DNA of 50,505 bases from Patescibacteria group bacterium (GTDB lineage Bacteria; Patescibacteriota; Patescibacteriia; Patescibacteriales; Patescibacteriaceae): contig CP129471.1 in the NCBI GenBank assembly GCA_030583705.1, forward strand, positions 1 through 50,505, written 5' to 3'. How positions within the stretch are numbered: position 1 is the stretch's first letter; every line of letters starts with the position of its first letter. The position numbers were made by a program, and so were the translations under genes. A model generated the notes under the pieces. That model was given only the letters and a program-made list of their open reading frames with translations. It did not search any database and had not been told where the DNA came from. This document shows, piece by piece, positions 18,237-50,482 of the stretch.

Positions 18237-18446
18237 ATGATAAAAACTACGGCACAAAGATTTGGTGAAAACATGAAGAAAATACGACTCAAAAAAGATA
18301 TGTCGCAAGGCGATGTTTGTCGAGTGTTGGATTTAGATAGAGCGTACATTAGTAATATTGAGAATGGCAAGCAAAATATAACGATCACGACAATGGAAAA
18401 AGTTGCTAAGGCACTAGGTGTGAATATTGATATACTTTTAAAATAA
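18237..18446 (+). CDS. XRE-family helix-turn-helix regulator, likely restriction-modification controller (C protein)
   Basis: This 69-residue protein is a single HTH_3 domain: FGENMKKIRLKKDMSQGDVC, then LDRAYISNIENGKQNITITT as the recognition region, and VAKALGVNIDILLK. The size and position, as first gene before a restriction enzyme and methyltransferase, match C proteins that delay endonuclease expression until DNA is methylated. The palindrome at 18171-18188 is the likely operator. It ends 4 bp before the restriction gene. Confidence 0.85.
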   Translation: MIKTTAQRFGENMKKIRLKKDMSQGDVCRVLDLDRAYISNIENGKQNITITTMEKVAKALGVNIDILLK

Positions 18447-18450
18447 TTTT

Positions 18451-19431
18451 ATGGTCAGTGTAGATTCAAGACAAATGACAACTGGAAAATCATTTGAATA
18501 CGCTCTTCTTATTTCGTTCGAAGAAAAGTTAAAAAATAAAACCAATCTTGTTATTATAAAAAATTCATCTTTTGATGTTGCTAAGAGTTGTTTTGATAGT
18601 GTTTCCATAAATGAAAAGAGTGAATATCTATTATCAGCTAGTTTTGCAGTAAACTTTTTAATAGATATAGAGCCAAGACTTTCTAATGATATTGGTAAAA
18701 ATGATATTCTTCAACTTGAAATTCTATCTGATTATTATGGTAAAGCTGGGGATGTTCGCGATATTATTGCTATTCGTTTGCTTCAAAAATGGGAAATTGG
18801 TGTTTCTGCAAAAAATAATCATAAAGCAGTAAAACACTCTCGACTTTCTTCTAATATAGATTTTGGTGATAAATGGTTAGGAATCAAAAATTCAAAAGAA
18901 TATTTTGACACAGTGACACCAATTTTTAATAGCTTAGAAAAAATAAGAAAAGAAAGCGGGGCAAAGAAGAAATGGAGCGAACTTGGTGACTATCACTCAT
19001 CTATTTATATTCCAATTCTCAAGGCATTTGTAAAAGAACTAAAAAATCTTTATAAAAACGATTCTAAAAAAGTTGCCTTTAATCTAGTTGCTTACTTGGT
19101 TGGAAATAAGGATTTCTACAAAGTTATTAAGGGAAAGAATTCGGTTGAGATTCACGCTTATAATATAAATGGGACATTAAATCTTCCATTTAAAGAAATT
19201 CAACCAAAATATAAAACACCCAGGGTTCCACTTCCTACCAAAATTATTAATATAGATTTCAAAATGGATAGCAATACAACGGTAGTAGTTACAATGGATA
19301 ATGATTGGACACTTTCTTTTAGAATTCATAATGCAAGCTCAAGAGTAGAATCATCGCTTAAATTTGATATAAACCTCTTAAAATCCCCAAAGAAATTATT
19401 TAAAAATACATTAAATATAAGTAAAGATTAA
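18451..19431 (+). CDS. Type II restriction endonuclease, HaeIII-like family (predicted GGCC)
   Basis: The 326-residue protein resembles the HaeIII restriction family. The central block GKAGDVRDIIAIRLLQKWEI, then GVSAKNNHKAVKHSRLS and DFGDKWLG, corresponds to the family's conserved region and contains a D...E-x-S-x-K nuclease-like core (about residues 110-130). The N-terminus (GKSFEYALLISFEEKL ... NSSFDVAKSCFDSVS) also fits. The recognition sequence is inferred as GGCC from this similarity and from the adjacent M.HaeIII-like methyltransferase. It lies 4 bp after the controller and 4 bp before the methyltransferase. No frameshift is seen, so it appears intact. Confidence 0.78.
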   Translation: MVSVDSRQMTTGKSFEYALLISFEEKLKNKTNLVIIKNSSFDVAKSCFDSVSINEKSEYLLSASFAVNFLIDIEPRLSNDIGKNDILQLEILSDYYGKAGDVRDIIAIRLLQKWEIGVSAKNNHKAVKHSRLSSNIDFGDKWLGIKNSKEYFDTVTPIFNSLEKIRKESGAKKKWSELGDYHSSIYIPILKAFVKELKNLYKNDSKKVAFNLVAYLVGNKDFYKVIKGKNSVEIHAYNINGTLNLPFKEIQPKYKTPRVPLPTKIINIDFKMDSNTTVVVTMDNDWTLSFRIHNASSRVESSLKFDINLLKSPKKLFKNTLNISKD

Positions 19432-19435
19432 ATCT

Positions 19436-20419
19436 ATGAAATTAGCCTCATTGTTTACAGGTGCAGGAGGACTTGATCTCGGCTTTGAAAAAGCTGGTTT
19501 TCATGTTGTCTGGGCAAATGAATATGATCCAACAATTTGGGAAACTTTCGAATATAATTTTCCCAAAACAAAATTAGACCGCCGTAGCATTGTTGATGTT
19601 TCTCCTTCCGATATACCCAATGGAGTTGATGGAATTATTGGGGGACCACCTTGTCAAAGTTGGAGTGAAGCTGGAGCTGGACGTGGAATTAATGACAAGA
19701 GGGGTCAATTATTTTTTGATTACATTCGATTACTTAAAAAAAAGCAACCAAAGTTTTTTCTTGCAGAGAATGTTTCAGGTATTCTTCATCCAAAGCATGC
19801 TGAAGCATTTTCTAATATAATTAAGGAATTTGAAGGTGCTGGGTATGTTGTATCTTGGAAGTTATTAAATGCGAACAATTATGATGTTCCTGAAGATAGA
19901 TTACGTGTAATTATCATTGGTTATAATAAGAAACTTAAAAAGAAATTTGAGTTTCCAGAACCATGCAAGCATAAACCCGTATTAAAAGATGCAATCTTTG
20001 ATTTGCGCTTAGCAAAACCAGCCAAAGATAAGAATAAAACAAATGGTGATGCTTTAAAAGTTCCAAACCATGAGTATATGAATGGTGGTTTTTCCACTAT
20101 CTATATGTCACGAAATAGGGTTCGATCATGGGATGAACCTTCTTTTACGATTCAGGCAGGAGGTCGTCATGCACCTATTCATCCTCAAGCACCAAAAATG
20201 AAGTTTATAAGTCAAAATGAAAGAGTTTTTGTGCCGGGAAAGGAACGTTTATATCGTCGTTTATCTGTTCGAGAATGTGCAAGAATTCAAACTTTTCCTG
20301 ATAATTTTATCTTTAAATATCGTGATGTTGCTGATGGTTACAAAATGATTGGGAATGCTGTTCCAGTGAATTTTGCATATCATCTTGCAAAAAAAATAAT
20401 GCAGGATTTGAAATACTAA
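19436..20419 (+). CDS. DNA (cytosine-5) methyltransferase, M.HaeIII-like (predicted GGCC)
   Basis: All key C5-methyltransferase motifs are present: I LASLFTGAGGLDLGFEKAG, IV GGPPCQSWSEAG with the catalytic cysteine, VI FFLAENVSG, VIII PEDRLRVIIIG, IX LYRRLSVRECARIQTFP, and X YKMIGNAVPVNFA. The target-recognition region contains NHEYMNGGFSTIYMSRNRVR, close to M.HaeIII, which modifies the inner C of GGCC. 327 residues equals the family size. It protects host DNA from the endonuclease encoded just upstream. Confidence 0.9.
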   Translation: MKLASLFTGAGGLDLGFEKAGFHVVWANEYDPTIWETFEYNFPKTKLDRRSIVDVSPSDIPNGVDGIIGGPPCQSWSEAGAGRGINDKRGQLFFDYIRLLKKKQPKFFLAENVSGILHPKHAEAFSNIIKEFEGAGYVVSWKLLNANNYDVPEDRLRVIIIGYNKKLKKKFEFPEPCKHKPVLKDAIFDLRLAKPAKDKNKTNGDALKVPNHEYMNGGFSTIYMSRNRVRSWDEPSFTIQAGGRHAPIHPQAPKMKFISQNERVFVPGKERLYRRLSVRECARIQTFPDNFIFKYRDVADGYKMIGNAVPVNFAYHLAKKIMQDLKY

Positions 20420-20423
20420 CTAA

Positions 20424-21494
20424 ATGAATCAATTAAATAAAAAACTAAAAGCAATCGATTTCTTCTGTTCTGGTGGAGGAATGAGTTTTGGTTTGCAACA
20501 AGCTGGGATAGACGTTATAGCAGGAATTGATTTTGATCCTGATTGCAAAGATACATATGAAGCGAATGTAAAAGGTGCAAAGTACATTCTTGCTGATGTC
20601 GGGAAACTAAACGAAGAGGATTTAGCAAGAGAAGTAGATATAAAAAAGAATGACAATAATCTAATTCTAGTTGGATGTAGCCCTTGTCAATATTGGACGA
20701 TTATTCGAACAAATAAAAATAAGTCTCAAAAATCTAAAAACTTACTACATGAATTTCATAGATTTGTGAAATATTACAACCCTGGGTATGTTGTCGTAGA
20801 AAACGTTCCGGGAATTTTAAATAAGCACAAAGAAAGTGGGTTAGATAAATTTGTCGATGATTTAAAAAAGCAAGGATATACAGTTCACTACGAAATAGTA
20901 AACCTAAATGAATACGGCGTACCCGAAACGAGAAAAAGGTTTTCTCTAATTGCCAATAGAGTTGCTGGTAAAGAAATATTTCCAAAACCTGAGCATTCTT
21001 GCCCGACTGTTTCAGATTACATAGGAAAGAAAAACGGCTTCAAAACAATTTCAGCAGGACATAAGGATGATACTGATTTTTTGCACACTGCCGCTGGCTT
21101 GAGTGATACAAACATACAACGCCTCAAATTAACTCCCAAAAATGGTGGCACACGCCATTCGTGGGCAAATACAAATTTGCAAATCAACGCTTACAAAAAA
21201 GGTGCTGGAAATATTTCTTTTAATGATACTTATGGACGAATGTCTTGGGATAAACCAGCTCCAACAATAACTACAAAATTTTTCAGTATTTCAAATGGTA
21301 GATTTGCTCATCCAGAAGAAAATCGAGCAATCTCTTTGCGTGAGGGTGCTACCCTGCAAACATTCCCTAAAAAGTATAAGTTTGTAGGAAACAGTATAGC
21401 TACGATTGCAAGAATGATCGGGAACGCAGTCCCTCCACTTTTTGCAAAGCAAATTGGAAAAACCATAATCAAAAATCATCATGCTAGAAAATAG
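20424..21494 (+). CDS. Second DNA (cytosine-5) methyltransferase, different specificity
   Basis: Motifs: I AIDFFCSGGGMSFGLQQAG, IV VGCSPCQYWT, VI YVVVENVPGIL, VIII VPETRKRFSLIA, IX-like ISLREGATLQTFP, X IARMIGNAVPPLFA. The recognition region differs completely from the neighbouring M.HaeIII-like enzyme, so it should modify another sequence; the site cannot be predicted. It lies 4 bp after the first methyltransferase, and its end overlaps the ATPase/HEPN gene by 14 bp. That tight coupling suggests it partners that protein rather than the HaeIII pair. Confidence 0.88.
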   Translation: MNQLNKKLKAIDFFCSGGGMSFGLQQAGIDVIAGIDFDPDCKDTYEANVKGAKYILADVGKLNEEDLAREVDIKKNDNNLILVGCSPCQYWTIIRTNKNKSQKSKNLLHEFHRFVKYYNPGYVVVENVPGILNKHKESGLDKFVDDLKKQGYTVHYEIVNLNEYGVPETRKRFSLIANRVAGKEIFPKPEHSCPTVSDYIGKKNGFKTISAGHKDDTDFLHTAAGLSDTNIQRLKLTPKNGGTRHSWANTNLQINAYKKGAGNISFNDTYGRMSWDKPAPTITTKFFSISNGRFAHPEENRAISLREGATLQTFPKKYKFVGNSIATIARMIGNAVPPLFAKQIGKTIIKNHHARK

Positions 21495-23172
21495 TACACA
21501 AAAATTGCAAATGAAATTTGCGCCCAATACGATAGAACATCTTGGTGTGAAAATGTATTCTACACTACCACCAGTTGTATCTGAACTTATTGCAAATTCT
21601 TATGATGCTGATGCTAAAGAAGTAAAAATTTTACTTAATGATTCTGAAAATAAAGAAATAGTGGTATCTGATGACGGACATGGAATGTCTTTTGATGAAA
21701 TCAACGAAAGTTTTTTAACAATCGGCAGAAATAGACGTGTTAAAAATTCGACAGATGAGTCACCAAAAGGGCGAAAGGTTATCGGGAAAAAAGGTCTTGG
21801 AAAATTATCATTTTTCGGAATTGCTCACGAAATTGAGATTATTACAATTAAAGACAATAAAAAGAACTCGTTTGTAATGGATTGGGAAGCAATAATGCGC
21901 ATGGAGAATGAGGAGGGTGGAATAGAAAACTATGAACCAGGAATTTTGATATTGGATGAGGATACAGATGAAGATAACGGGACAATAGTAACTTTAAGAA
22001 AAATACAGAGGGTGAGTAATTTCGATGTTGAAACATTAGCAGATAGTATTTCTAAATATTTTATTTTACCAGATGATTTTAATATTAAATTATCTCACAA
22101 TGATAATGAATGGATAGAAATTGATAATACTAGACGTTATGCCTCGACACCTGCAGAAGTTGAGTGGACTGTACCAAAAGACGTAGAGTTTGGTGATGAT
22201 TGTGAACATTTTAAAAATATCACAGGGCACCTTCTTGCCACCGAAAAACCAATTTCTCCCAATACAAATATGCGAGGGGTTACTCTTTTTTCAAGAAAGA
22301 AATTAGTAAATCTTCCAGAATACTTTTCTGATAGTACATCAAGTCACTTTTTTAACTATCTAACAGGGTGGTTAGAAGTAGATTTTATAGATGAATTAGA
22401 CGAAGATGTTATTGGAACTAACCGACAGACATTAAATTGGGATCATCCAGAAATGCAAAAATTAAGGCTCTGCCTGCAAAATCTTCTTAAATGGATAGAG
22501 AGGGATTGGCGTGTAAAGAGAAAAAGTATTCGCGAAACAAAGTTGGATGATGAATTAAAGAAAGTTGATATTACAATAGGCGAATGGCAAGAAAATGTTC
22601 CAGACAAAATTAAACTTGATTTAATACCAGTTCTAGAAAAAATAGTTGGTGATTCCGAATTATCAAATGAAGAAATAACTGGTGCGGTAAAGCATTTAAA
22701 AAATGTTTTACCTCCATACACTTACTATCATTATCAAAATCTCCACAGCAATTTAAGTGATGCTGTATTTCAGTACTATGCAGATCAAAATTACTATGAA
22801 GCGGTAAGAATGGGCACAATAAGATACATTACTTTACTTAGAGCTAAAATATCAAAACAAGACGGTAATGAGGAGCAGGTGATAGTCCATGCTTTTAAGG
22901 AACAAGGTGCGGTACTAAGTGTTGTCAAAAAGTATAGTTCATATAAAAACGTAAACACTGGTGCTGAAATTACAGACATAACAAAAGAAACGATTAGTCG
23001 CGGGCATAGATTATTGGCCCAAGCAATGATTGCCTCTTTTAGAAACCCTGTGTCACACCAAGAGCCGCATGATTTAAAGATGTCTGAGATATATACGGAA
23101 CAAGATTGTCTTGATGCCCTGGGTTTATTGTCTCACCTTTTCAGACGTCTTGATAATACAGAGTCAGTTTAA
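21481..23172 (+). CDS. GHKL-type ATPase fused to a C-terminal Ymh-like HEPN domain; candidate defence effector
   Basis: Residues ~15-200 form a GHKL ATPase (histidine-kinase/MutL/MORC-like): N-box SELIANSYDADAKEVKI (E35, N39, D42), DDGHGM (65-69 region), and lid motif GKKGLGKLS (about 102-110). The middle (200-400) is unassigned, with an acidic, aromatic stretch (FNYLTGWLEVDFIDEL). The last ~130 residues resemble the TIGR02391/Ymh-type HEPN domain, ending with MIASFRNPVSHQEPHD, where R521-N-P-x-x-H526 is the HEPN RNase signature. Domain order suggests an ATP-gated sensor driving an RNase. It overlaps the methyltransferase gene and precedes an HNH-like gene. Prokaryotic GHKL/MORC-type ATPases are known near restriction-modification genes; this exact fusion is not one I recognise as characterised. 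Confidence 0.75.
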   Translation: MLENSTQKLQMKFAPNTIEHLGVKMYSTLPPVVSELIANSYDADAKEVKILLNDSENKEIVVSDDGHGMSFDEINESFLTIGRNRRVKNSTDESPKGRKVIGKKGLGKLSFFGIAHEIEIITIKDNKKNSFVMDWEAIMRMENEEGGIENYEPGILILDEDTDEDNGTIVTLRKIQRVSNFDVETLADSISKYFILPDDFNIKLSHNDNEWIEIDNTRRYASTPAEVEWTVPKDVEFGDDCEHFKNITGHLLATEKPISPNTNMRGVTLFSRKKLVNLPEYFSDSTSSHFFNYLTGWLEVDFIDELDEDVIGTNRQTLNWDHPEMQKLRLCLQNLLKWIERDWRVKRKSIRETKLDDELKKVDITIGEWQENVPDKIKLDLIPVLEKIVGDSELSNEEITGAVKHLKNVLPPYTYYHYQNLHSNLSDAVFQYYADQNYYEAVRMGTIRYITLLRAKISKQDGNEEQVIVHAFKEQGAVLSVVKKYSSYKNVNTGAEITDITKETISRGHRLLAQAMIASFRNPVSHQEPHDLKMSEIYTEQDCLDALGLLSHLFRRLDNTESV

Positions 23173-48223: not shown

Positions 48224-48466
48224 TCACTGGAAGTCGTTAATAAATTTTTCCAAGCTTTCTTTTGTCGATAAGTGACCACCTGCAAGCATTATTGTTCCCA
48301 ACTCAAGTGCAGCGTGATCCCTGGTTTCTTCATGTTTAGATAAATCTGATACAAATGATGCCCAACAATTATTTAAGTTACCTTCTTCAATATGTTCCAG
48401 GGCTCTTTTTTTAGCCCCTTCCAGGTGTTCTTTTCTAGTTTGGCTTGACGACATGTTTTGCTCCAT
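48224..48466 (-). CDS. Small hypothetical protein, 80 residues
   Basis: A soluble helical protein with LEGAKKRALEHIEEGNLNNC, WASFVSDLSKHEETRDHAAL and LGTIMLAGGHLSTKESLEKF. I recall similar small proteins in CPR genomes but cannot name a function. It has its own promoter, a 62-nt leader hairpin that starts 6 nt before the ATG, and a terminator. The promoter shares an upstream element with that of 49486-50289. Confidence 0.65.
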   Translation of the reverse strand: MEQNMSSSQTRKEHLEGAKKRALEHIEEGNLNNCWASFVSDLSKHEETRDHAALELGTIMLAGGHLSTKESLEKFINDFQ

Positions 48467-48471
48467 TTTTA

Positions 48472-48533
48472 ATTATTGAATAATTTACAGATTCTCTGAA
48501 TAATTTCTGAAATTCAGTAAATTATTCAATAAT
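48472..48533 (-). promoter_or_regulatory. Long leader hairpin directly upstream of the 80-residue gene
   Basis: A perfect 17-bp inverted repeat ATTATTGAATAATTTAC (48472-48488) with its complement at 48517-48533 encloses a second stem CTGAAT/ATTCAG (48496-48501, 48512-48517). In the mRNA it would form a near-continuous hairpin next to the start codon. Confidence 0.7.
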
Positions 48534-48564
48534 CAATTTAGTTGTCAAAAAACTAAGATTGTTT

Positions 48565-48593
48565 ACTATATTATACAAATATAAAATTGTCAA
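48565..48593 (-). promoter_or_regulatory. Promoter of the 80-residue gene
   Basis: TTGACA (48588-48593), 17-bp spacer, TATAGT (48565-48570) on the minus strand. The -35 lies at the edge of the duplicated element 48586-48640. Confidence 0.75.
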
Positions 48594-48640
48594 TAGATTC
48601 TGCTGAATTTAAGCTTGAAGTGTAATTAATATAATAAATA
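48586..48640 (-). repeat. 55-bp promoter-upstream element, copy 1
   Basis: This 55-bp block and 50428-50482 agree at about 46 positions. On the minus strand it reads TTTATTATATTAA, then CACTTCAnGCTTnAATTCAGC, a variable 5 bp, and TATTGACAAT including the -35 box. It may be a regulator site or UP element. The rest of 48641-48800 holds nothing I can name. Confidence 0.75.
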
Positions 48641-48800
48641 CCAGTTATAATGTCTGATGAATGTATCTAATGAACGAATAGTCAAGGCGATATATTTATA
48701 GAACCCTAGAAACTATTTTACTTTGTTTGAAAAAGGTTATAATCTCGTCTACTACGCTTCTTAATCATTAAGTTAGATATCAATTAGATTTTTTAAAGGT

Positions 48801-48834
48801 AAAAAAAGAACCGCTGGGCTTACCATGCGGTTCT
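48801..48834 (-). terminator. Terminator after the tautomerase-like gene
   Basis: On the minus strand AGAACCGC/GCGGTTCT with a 12-nt loop, then a run of seven T. Confidence 0.85.
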
Positions 48835-48850
48835 GTTACTTAGAGATTAT

Positions 48851-49444
48851 TTATTTTATTTCTCGGAGTATAAATGTTAGAAAAATTAGGCAACTTGAAA
48901 GAAAAAAGTTTGCGCTATCCGTTAAGAAAAGATTAATTAGGAGTTGCCATGTCTTGGGCTCGGGTGAGGACATCATCCCTGTGAATATACTTAAGAAGAG
49001 AAGACCACCTATACCAACGTATATTATTACTAATAAATATAAACTGATACTGTTAAGCACTTTTGATATTTTTTCCCATGTGCTTTCTTCCTTCTGATTT
49101 GTGTCCGAACTCCAAAACCCCTCTTCAGGTTTAAAGCGATGAATAGAACATTCTACTTTTGCTGTGGGGTAGAGTTTTTTAACTGCTGAACCTACGTCTT
49201 TTGCAAGTTTTTGAAGAATTTTTGTAGTTCTTTTTGGCTTATTAAAGACTTCTATCTCGACGATTATTTCATTACCCAGTCCATACTTCATGGAGTCGGG
49301 TGGGAATAAGCACGTCATGTCGTTTTCGTCTTTGAGTTCCATTTCAGGAATCTCTATTACCGCCGCAACGATCTTTTTATGAAGAGTGTTGAGTTCTTCT
49401 TCGCTTTGACCATCCTTTAAGCACCATACTTTAATTATTGGCAT
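48851..49444 (-). CDS. Tautomerase-like N-terminal domain fused to two membrane helices
   Basis: Residues 1-115 look like a tautomerase-superfamily (4-oxalocrotonate tautomerase/MIF-type) domain: MPIIKVWCLKDGQSEEELNT with a potential catalytic Pro after the start Met, HKKIVAAVIEIPEMELKDEN, NEIIVEIEVFNKPKRTTKIL and LAKDVGSAVKKLYPTAKVEC. A linker (WSSDTNQKEEST) leads to two membrane helices (ISLYLLVIIYVGIGGLLFLS and FFLSSCLIFLTFIL). The membrane fusion is unusual for this family. 41 bp downstream of the 267-residue membrane-protein gene, probably the same operon. Confidence 0.65.
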   Translation of the reverse strand: MPIIKVWCLKDGQSEEELNTLHKKIVAAVIEIPEMELKDENDMTCLFPPDSMKYGLGNEIIVEIEVFNKPKRTTKILQKLAKDVGSAVKKLYPTAKVECSIHRFKPEEGFWSSDTNQKEESTWEKISKVLNSISLYLLVIIYVGIGGLLFLSIFTGMMSSPEPKTWQLLINLFLTDSANFFLSSCLIFLTFILREIK

Positions 49445-49485
49445 TTCTGCTCCTTTTTTGATTAATTGTTTAACTTATTATTTTT

Positions 49486-50289
49486 TTACTCCTGCACTAA
49501 CTGCTTAATATATGCTGTATCTTTAGCATATCCATTAGCGCAGAAGTAATACACTAATTTATAACAAACCTCGTCCCTAATTTCTTGTGGAGTATTAATA
49601 ACATCGAATGCTTCCATGAGCTTATTAAAGGGAGGATAGTCCTCAGTTCCTTCCGATTCGGGTATTTGAGGTACTATCGAGAACATTAGCTTATTAAAGC
49701 TATAGTTTGGAGAAGTACCATCTGTTTCTTCTTCAAAGCCTTTACCTTGAATTAGAAGCTGCACCCAATTAGTAAAGCCTGAAGGAGAAGTTACTAACAG
49801 ATCATATACTTTTTCAATTACTACTTCATTAAACATTTCTTTTATCTGATCGTATTCTTTATTCAGCTCCAAGTTATAGTAATTGAAGAAGTTGTTATAG
49901 AAAAATCCTAGATGAAGCATTGGTACTTCGTCCAATTTTCTTCTGAATTTTTCTACTAAGAATTGTTTCAATACAATGTCCAGTCCATTCTTTTTATACT
50001 TCTCAAACCCGAATACATTAAGAGAGGTGAATGCATTCTCTAACGCATCCTCTAATGAATTTTTAGTAAAGGGTGACAAGAGAGTTTGCATTGTTTTCTT
50101 CCTCCACATATAGATCTGGGCTATGACTAAAAAGCCGAGAACGCCAACTATAAGAAATGCTGCAAAAGATCCTTTGTTGAGGGGAAGTAGATTCTCTAAT
50201 GTTTTTTGGAATCCTTCTGAGAATCCCGCAAACACCGATATAACTAGTAATATAACAGTAAGTATTAATGCAATTTTTCTTTTTCTCAT
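49486..50289 (-). CDS. Membrane-anchored protein of unknown function, 267 residues
   Basis: Two N-terminal hydrophobic segments (IALILTVILLVISVFAGF, residues 6-23, and SFAAFLIVGVLGFLVIAQIY, 41-60) are followed by a ~205-residue helical, cytosol-type domain rich in aromatic residues (LHLGFFYNNFFNYYNLELNK, EVCYKLVYYFCANGYAKDTA). No family is recognised. It heads an operon with the tautomerase-like membrane protein, under a promoter with the duplicated upstream element and a leader hairpin. Confidence 0.65.
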   Translation of the reverse strand: MRKRKIALILTVILLVISVFAGFSEGFQKTLENLLPLNKGSFAAFLIVGVLGFLVIAQIYMWRKKTMQTLLSPFTKNSLEDALENAFTSLNVFGFEKYKKNGLDIVLKQFLVEKFRRKLDEVPMLHLGFFYNNFFNYYNLELNKEYDQIKEMFNEVVIEKVYDLLVTSPSGFTNWVQLLIQGKGFEEETDGTSPNYSFNKLMFSIVPQIPESEGTEDYPPFNKLMEAFDVINTPQEIRDEVCYKLVYYFCANGYAKDTAYIKQLVQE

Positions 50290-50306
50290 TTTTAGCTTAG
50301 ATTTAG

Positions 50307-50372
50307 TTTATGATTAAGAAATAACTCTTTAGGGCTAAAACCTAGAAAATAGAGCTATTTCTTAACCATAAA
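50307..50372 (-). promoter_or_regulatory. Long leader hairpin upstream of 49486-50289
   Basis: TTTATG, TTAAGAAATA and CTCT on one arm pair in register with AGAG, TATTTCTTAA and CATAAA on the other (20 bp with two 1x1 mismatches), closed by TAGG/CCTA. It begins 17 nt upstream of the ATG. Confidence 0.65.
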
Positions 50373-50406
50373 TTATTAAATTGTAAGGAACTAAGCACTA
50401 TCTTAT

Positions 50407-50435
50407 ATAATAGCATATTGTATGGATATTGTCAA
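50407..50435 (-). promoter_or_regulatory. Promoter of 49486-50289
   Basis: TTGACA (50430-50435), 17-bp spacer, TATTAT (50407-50412) on the minus strand, adjoining the duplicated element 50428-50482. Confidence 0.75.
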
Positions 50436-50482
50436 TAGTGAGGGCTGAATTCAAGCCTGAAGTGCACTTAATATAATAAATA
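50428..50482 (-). repeat. 55-bp promoter-upstream element, copy 2
   Basis: Second copy of the block at 48586-48640, about 46 of 55 positions identical, in the same orientation and the same place relative to the -35 box. Confidence 0.75.

Follow-up and report, generated by a model that had tools for sequence, protein, structure and literature searches.

A genome-restricted sequence element upstream of seven promoters in a Patescibacteria group bacterium

Two neighbouring transcription units of a Patescibacteria group bacterium are preceded by nearly the same sequence, which raises the question of what this upstream block is and how many other promoters carry it. The window (the whole stretch of 50,505 nucleotides that was analyzed) spans positions 1-50505 of a genome that is assembled as one contig of 869,590 bases (approx. 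95% complete) and whose small size and gene content point to a Patescibacteria-like organism. Our genome-wide motif searches covered all 869,590 bp.

The two promoters of the window and their leaders

A first-pass annotation had reported two promoters, each preceded by a near-identical block of 55 bp, and both were found where it had placed them. The promoters are of the sigma70 type, and when the blocks are anchored on TTGACA, 45 of the 55 ungapped positions match (approx. 46 according to the annotation). A 39-nt pattern of the block matched twice in the window, versus zero times in 100 dinucleotide shuffles. The features of the two units, S1 and S2, are as follows.

48602-48630, minus strand: S1 copy of the 29-bp motif, ATTAATTACACTTCAAGCTTAAATTCAGC
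48631-48640, minus strand: AT-rich 5′ extension of S1, TATTTATTAT, with the same letters in S2 and part of them in S3
48565-48593, minus strand: S1 promoter, TTGACA-17-TATAGT
48469-48536, minus strand: S1 leader hairpin with a 20-bp outer stem, ending just 5′ of a Shine-Dalgarno-like site, GGAGC
48224-48454, minus strand: S1 gene (76 aa), which probably begins at its second ATG, the one that follows GGAGC
50444-50472, minus strand: S2 copy of the 29-bp motif, ATTAAGTGCACTTCAGGCTTGAATTCAGC
50473-50482, minus strand: AT-rich 5′ extension of S2, TATTTATTAT
50407-50435, minus strand: S2 promoter, TTGACA-17-TATTAT
50307-50372, minus strand: S2 leader hairpin with a 22-bp outer stem
49486-50289, minus strand: first S2 gene (267 aa), with two N-terminal TM-like segments
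48851-49444, minus strand: second S2 gene (197 aa), with C-terminal TM helices

The genes themselves were described as unrelated, and sequence comparison indeed detected no common ancestry. The 76-aa protein had no relatives among 97 order-level genomes; it has a partial match (49%) in a Rhizobium plasmid and a sub-threshold match to DUF6437. For the 267-aa protein, no relative above background was found among 60 other genomes, and it is on these two genes that absence from relatives rests. The soluble part of the 197-aa protein is predicted, with moderate confidence and from a single-sequence model, to have a tautomerase-superfamily-like fold.

Each leader contains a hairpin close to the start codon, as had been claimed, with lengths of approx. 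68 and 66 nt (60-66 nt in the annotation) and folding energies of −27.4 kcal/mol (z = −5.8) for S1 and −30.6 kcal/mol (z = −4.5) for S2. Such strong structures in both leaders would fit control of the units at the RNA level, through long leader hairpins. The two hairpins, which lie outside the shared element, have no sequence in common, an Rfam covariance-model search of the window returned tRNAs only and no leader family, and the leaders of the other five members of the set described below contain no comparable hairpin (z between −0.3 and +1.1). Since the hairpins are unrelated in sequence and missing from five of the seven members, the RNA-based control put forward as a shared feature is unsupported, and we consider it extremely improbable as the explanation of this locus. 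The S1 and S2 hairpins could protect their own mRNAs or tune initiation, and they may tune the stability of these mRNAs.

Seven copies of the motif and the genes behind them

The genome-wide search for further copies of the block, which the annotation had proposed, revealed five more, bringing the total to seven. That part of the proposal which invoked a small regulon was therefore supported, with the block at the same position of seven promoters, whereas the part which invoked RNA-based control, with strong leader hairpins in two of the seven, was not. The additional copies and their targets are listed below.

Genome 814095, minus strand: S3 (whole-genome pattern search); product of 160 aa, with no fold assignable and a poor predicted model
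Genome 605617, minus strand: S4 (whole-genome pattern search); the genes behind it encode small membrane proteins and, farther along, a DUF3800 protein
Genome 813255, minus strand: S5 (whole-genome pattern search); products are a membrane protein of 250 aa and a second protein of 398 aa
Genome 141245, plus strand: S6 (whole-genome pattern search); target is a bS21-like ribosomal protein gene (Pfam match sub-threshold, homologues in 35 relatives)
Genome approx. 569096-569132, minus strand: S7 (profile search, E = 4e-7); target is a cold-shock-domain protein gene

All seven copies precede a TTGACA-17-TATAAT-like promoter. In the direction of transcription, the 29-bp consensus ATTAATTGCACTTCAAGCTTGAATTCAGC is followed by 7, 8 or 10 bases, TTGACA, approx. 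17 bases and a TATAAT-like box; the placement of TTGACA 7-10 bp downstream of the motif is thus near-fixed and constrained in the seven sites. S7 retains chiefly the right half of the motif, CAAGCTTGAATTTAGC.

Copies S3-S6 came from queries with the motif only, without the promoter, yet an exact TTGACA follows every one of them at a distance of 7-10 bp, which would happen by chance with a probability of approx. 0.001 per random position. Three weaker decoys in the genome (3 mismatches) have no TTGACA in this slot, and reversed-pattern controls gave zero matches in the genome. When the promoter-proximal half of the motif was combined with a fixed 8-base spacer, four matches were obtained, all of them known sites with this spacer length (reversed control, 0).

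S7 was recovered with a first profile, a sequence-only model of motif plus promoter built from S1-S6, before it entered any model. A second, shorter profile, which ends at the −35 box and has S7 among its building sequences, returned exactly seven sites at 30-42 bits and no others at E ≤ 3 in the genome, where profile E-values are circular for the sequences used to build the profile and the −35 part of both profiles is common to ordinary promoters. The best 150 first-look candidates were scored in this search, so that weak additional members could escape. The top score of the second profile in 13 relatives was 16.5 bits.

Between S1-S6, identity amounts to 19-27 of 29 positions in the motif versus 1-4 of 7 in the spacer, approximately the chance level. 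A conserved motif beside a random spacer looks like a constrained protein-binding site, and not like a recent copy of DNA. Recent duplications, or a promoter-bearing repeat (a mini mobile element) moved beside new genes, would be in keeping with the tandem pairs S1/S2 and S3/S5 (1-2 kb apart), the ten further upstream bases common to S1 and S2, the accessory genes among the targets and the tRNA gene that adjoins the S1/S2 island. Such an origin is nevertheless very unlikely, because motif but not spacer identity exceeds chance, neither sharp ends nor target duplications were seen, and the cspA copy lies before a promoter and a leader which are themselves conserved across the genus. A duplication of the tRNA-Asp 3′ end was considered as the boundary of the island and rejected, as a second copy is absent from the 13 kb read.

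The targets are two core genes (cold-shock-domain and rpsU/bS21-like) and five accessory transcription units, whose products are mostly small proteins or membrane proteins without an assigned function. The accessory proteins have no detectable common ancestry. A phage or plasmid origin of their genes was also dismissed: the products of S2, S3 and S5 are unmatched, with no confident PHROG, and S1 has its one partial plasmid match. A fatty acid desaturase gene (L005:8392-9492) lies just upstream of S3 and has no motif copy of its own. RelA/SpoT-like HD genes (L024:7737-8318 and L025:5680-7146) adjoin S4 (divergent, same gap) and S6 (convergent), which may be due to chance.

Possible roles of the block and candidate regulators

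We favour, with moderate confidence, the view that the block is an activator binding site upstream of the −35 box which defines a regulon of seven promoters. A sequence-specific DNA-binding protein would occupy about −72 to −44, just upstream of the −35 box, and once bound would most likely activate transcription by the housekeeping sigma factor by touching RNA polymerase; the seven units (two core and five accessory) would be co-regulated via the block. It is from position only that we infer activation rather than another role. Three observations count against this reading: the search for a regulator gene found none, the spacing to the −35 box is variable (7, 8 or 10 bp), and the cspA promoters and leaders of genus mates are conserved yet blockless. 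The cspA-like and bS21-like targets lead us to speculate that the signal is related to growth or temperature.

The core of the motif contains a palindrome, TTCAAGCTTGAA, centred near −55 as counted from the promoter boxes. Such a palindromic core, and the fact that accessory genes are often silenced, would be compatible with a repressor that binds the block and acts from this upstream position, or with a nucleation site of a nucleoid protein. This is quite unlikely, since the block lies upstream of the −35 box and not over the core promoter, the −35 boxes are perfect consensus sequences and two of the targets are core genes.

Another possibility is an unusual UP element, to which the C-terminal domains of the RNA polymerase alpha subunits would bind directly, strengthening the promoters with no dedicated regulator. 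Its appeal lies in the position directly upstream of the −35 box, the AT-rich 5′ part of the block (ATTAATT and TATTTATTAT), the cold-shock and bS21-like targets, which are of often highly expressed types, and the fact that no regulator was found. However, the A- and T-tract composition expected of a UP element at about −59 to −38 was not observed; the conserved core, CTTCAAGCTTGAATTCAGC, is mostly not A/T-tract, and its G and C positions are conserved. Moreover, the element is present at seven promoters only and is missing from others in the genome and the genus. We regard a UP element as unlikely.

A dedicated regulator is plausible. The OmpR-type and HTH_3 families of the genome were listed, and none of their members could be linked to the motif. 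The genome encodes a single OmpR-type response regulator (279831-280046); in relatives G002 and G003, no OmpR-type regulator was found. The one encoded here is an unlikely candidate, because its homologue in relative G001 has the same recognition helix and G001 lacks the motif, although the G001 assembly is fragmented and the absence of the motif there is not fully decisive. The gene belongs to a cluster (L160:748-4985 and L161) of a response regulator, a histidine kinase and a weakly cyclase-like third gene, seen in both genomes; the homologue in G001 is accompanied by a similar kinase and third gene.

Two HTH_3 proteins were rejected. The one encoded at 18273 adjoins DNA methyltransferases, has no link to the motif and is probably a restriction-modification controller. 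Its small gene is followed, within window positions 18273-23172, by a pair of C5-methyltransferase-like genes and one ATPase-like gene, an arrangement suggestive of a restriction-modification island that has its own controller protein. The other, at 702020, is the neighbour of a toxin-like gene and likewise has no link to the motif.

Distribution of the element and relation to known systems

No well-placed copy of the motif with up to three mismatches was found in three genus mates and 94 other relatives of the order; four 3-mismatch matches elsewhere were regarded as background. In G001-G003, the −35/−10 region and leader of cspA are recognizable and the block is absent, as it is from the regions upstream of rpsU. 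The element thus leaves no phylogenetic footprint, being without conservation in genus mates, and it is claimed for one genome only, because cspA and rpsU of G001-G003 have no site and none rose above background in the 97 relatives.

An exact scan with 21 fixed bases across approx. 85,000 species genomes, a set which may omit the genome of the window itself and a search which drifted versions would escape, gave one match, in an archaeal MAG, which we took as chance. The same scan of IMG/VR gave no match. In the literature, we found no description of this motif or of a comparable regulon.

The element is real and restricted to one genome, where it precedes seven promoters; in kind it represents an ordinary regulon. 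This restriction, and the mixture of core and orphan targets, are what make it moderately interesting. It is conceivable, although we hold this only tentatively, that a lineage-specific regulator was gained or re-specified after this species diverged from its genus mates and captured core growth or stress genes (cspA-like and bS21-like) together with newly acquired orphan genes under a single 29-bp site, forming a young regulon in a reduced genome. Its absence from the examined genus mates would make the element an example of rapid regulon birth. Transcription control is little mapped in small-genome uncultured bacteria. A site with seven targets and a sharp score gap from the background predicts which orphan genes act jointly with a cold-shock protein and a protein of the ribosome, and the motif offers a bait toward the regulator.

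The arrangement resembles promoters of the PhoB/OmpR and CRP/FNR types, in which a site of 20-30 bp abuts the −35 box of a sigma70 promoter and is partly repeated (here CTTCA/ATTCA) or palindromic; unlike those promoters, the present ones have perfect −35 boxes. OmpR/PhoB-type promoters contain at least two direct repeats with a period of 10-11 bp; the period observed here, by inspection of the alignment, is an imperfect 12 bp. A motif of this type should also follow its regulator, which does not appear to be the case in the fragmented G001 genome with its same-helix homologue. To our knowledge, the sequence of the motif matches no described site. The likeness to UP elements extends to the position and the AT-rich 5′ part of the block, but not to the strict core of mixed composition or to the occurrence in seven copies only.

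Cold-shock regulons have targets such as cspA and rpsU, similar to the cold-shock-domain and bS21-like genes found here. Known cold-shock control resides mostly in the mRNA leader, whereas this element lies upstream of the promoter and is missing from the cspA genes of relatives. The cspA leaders (L091-L101) contain a GTCGA-TTC-like block across genera, and within the genus the conserved part of the leader is longer, which makes it a candidate cold-shock leader element. At the starts of rpsU across the order (L026-L055), we observed a common block, TCTAGAAAGGYAGGTG, a few nucleotides 5′ of the start codon, which is Shine-Dalgarno-like but odd and extended. The genome studied here has its copy at approx. 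141357-141380, and translational control of bS21 through this start block is possible.
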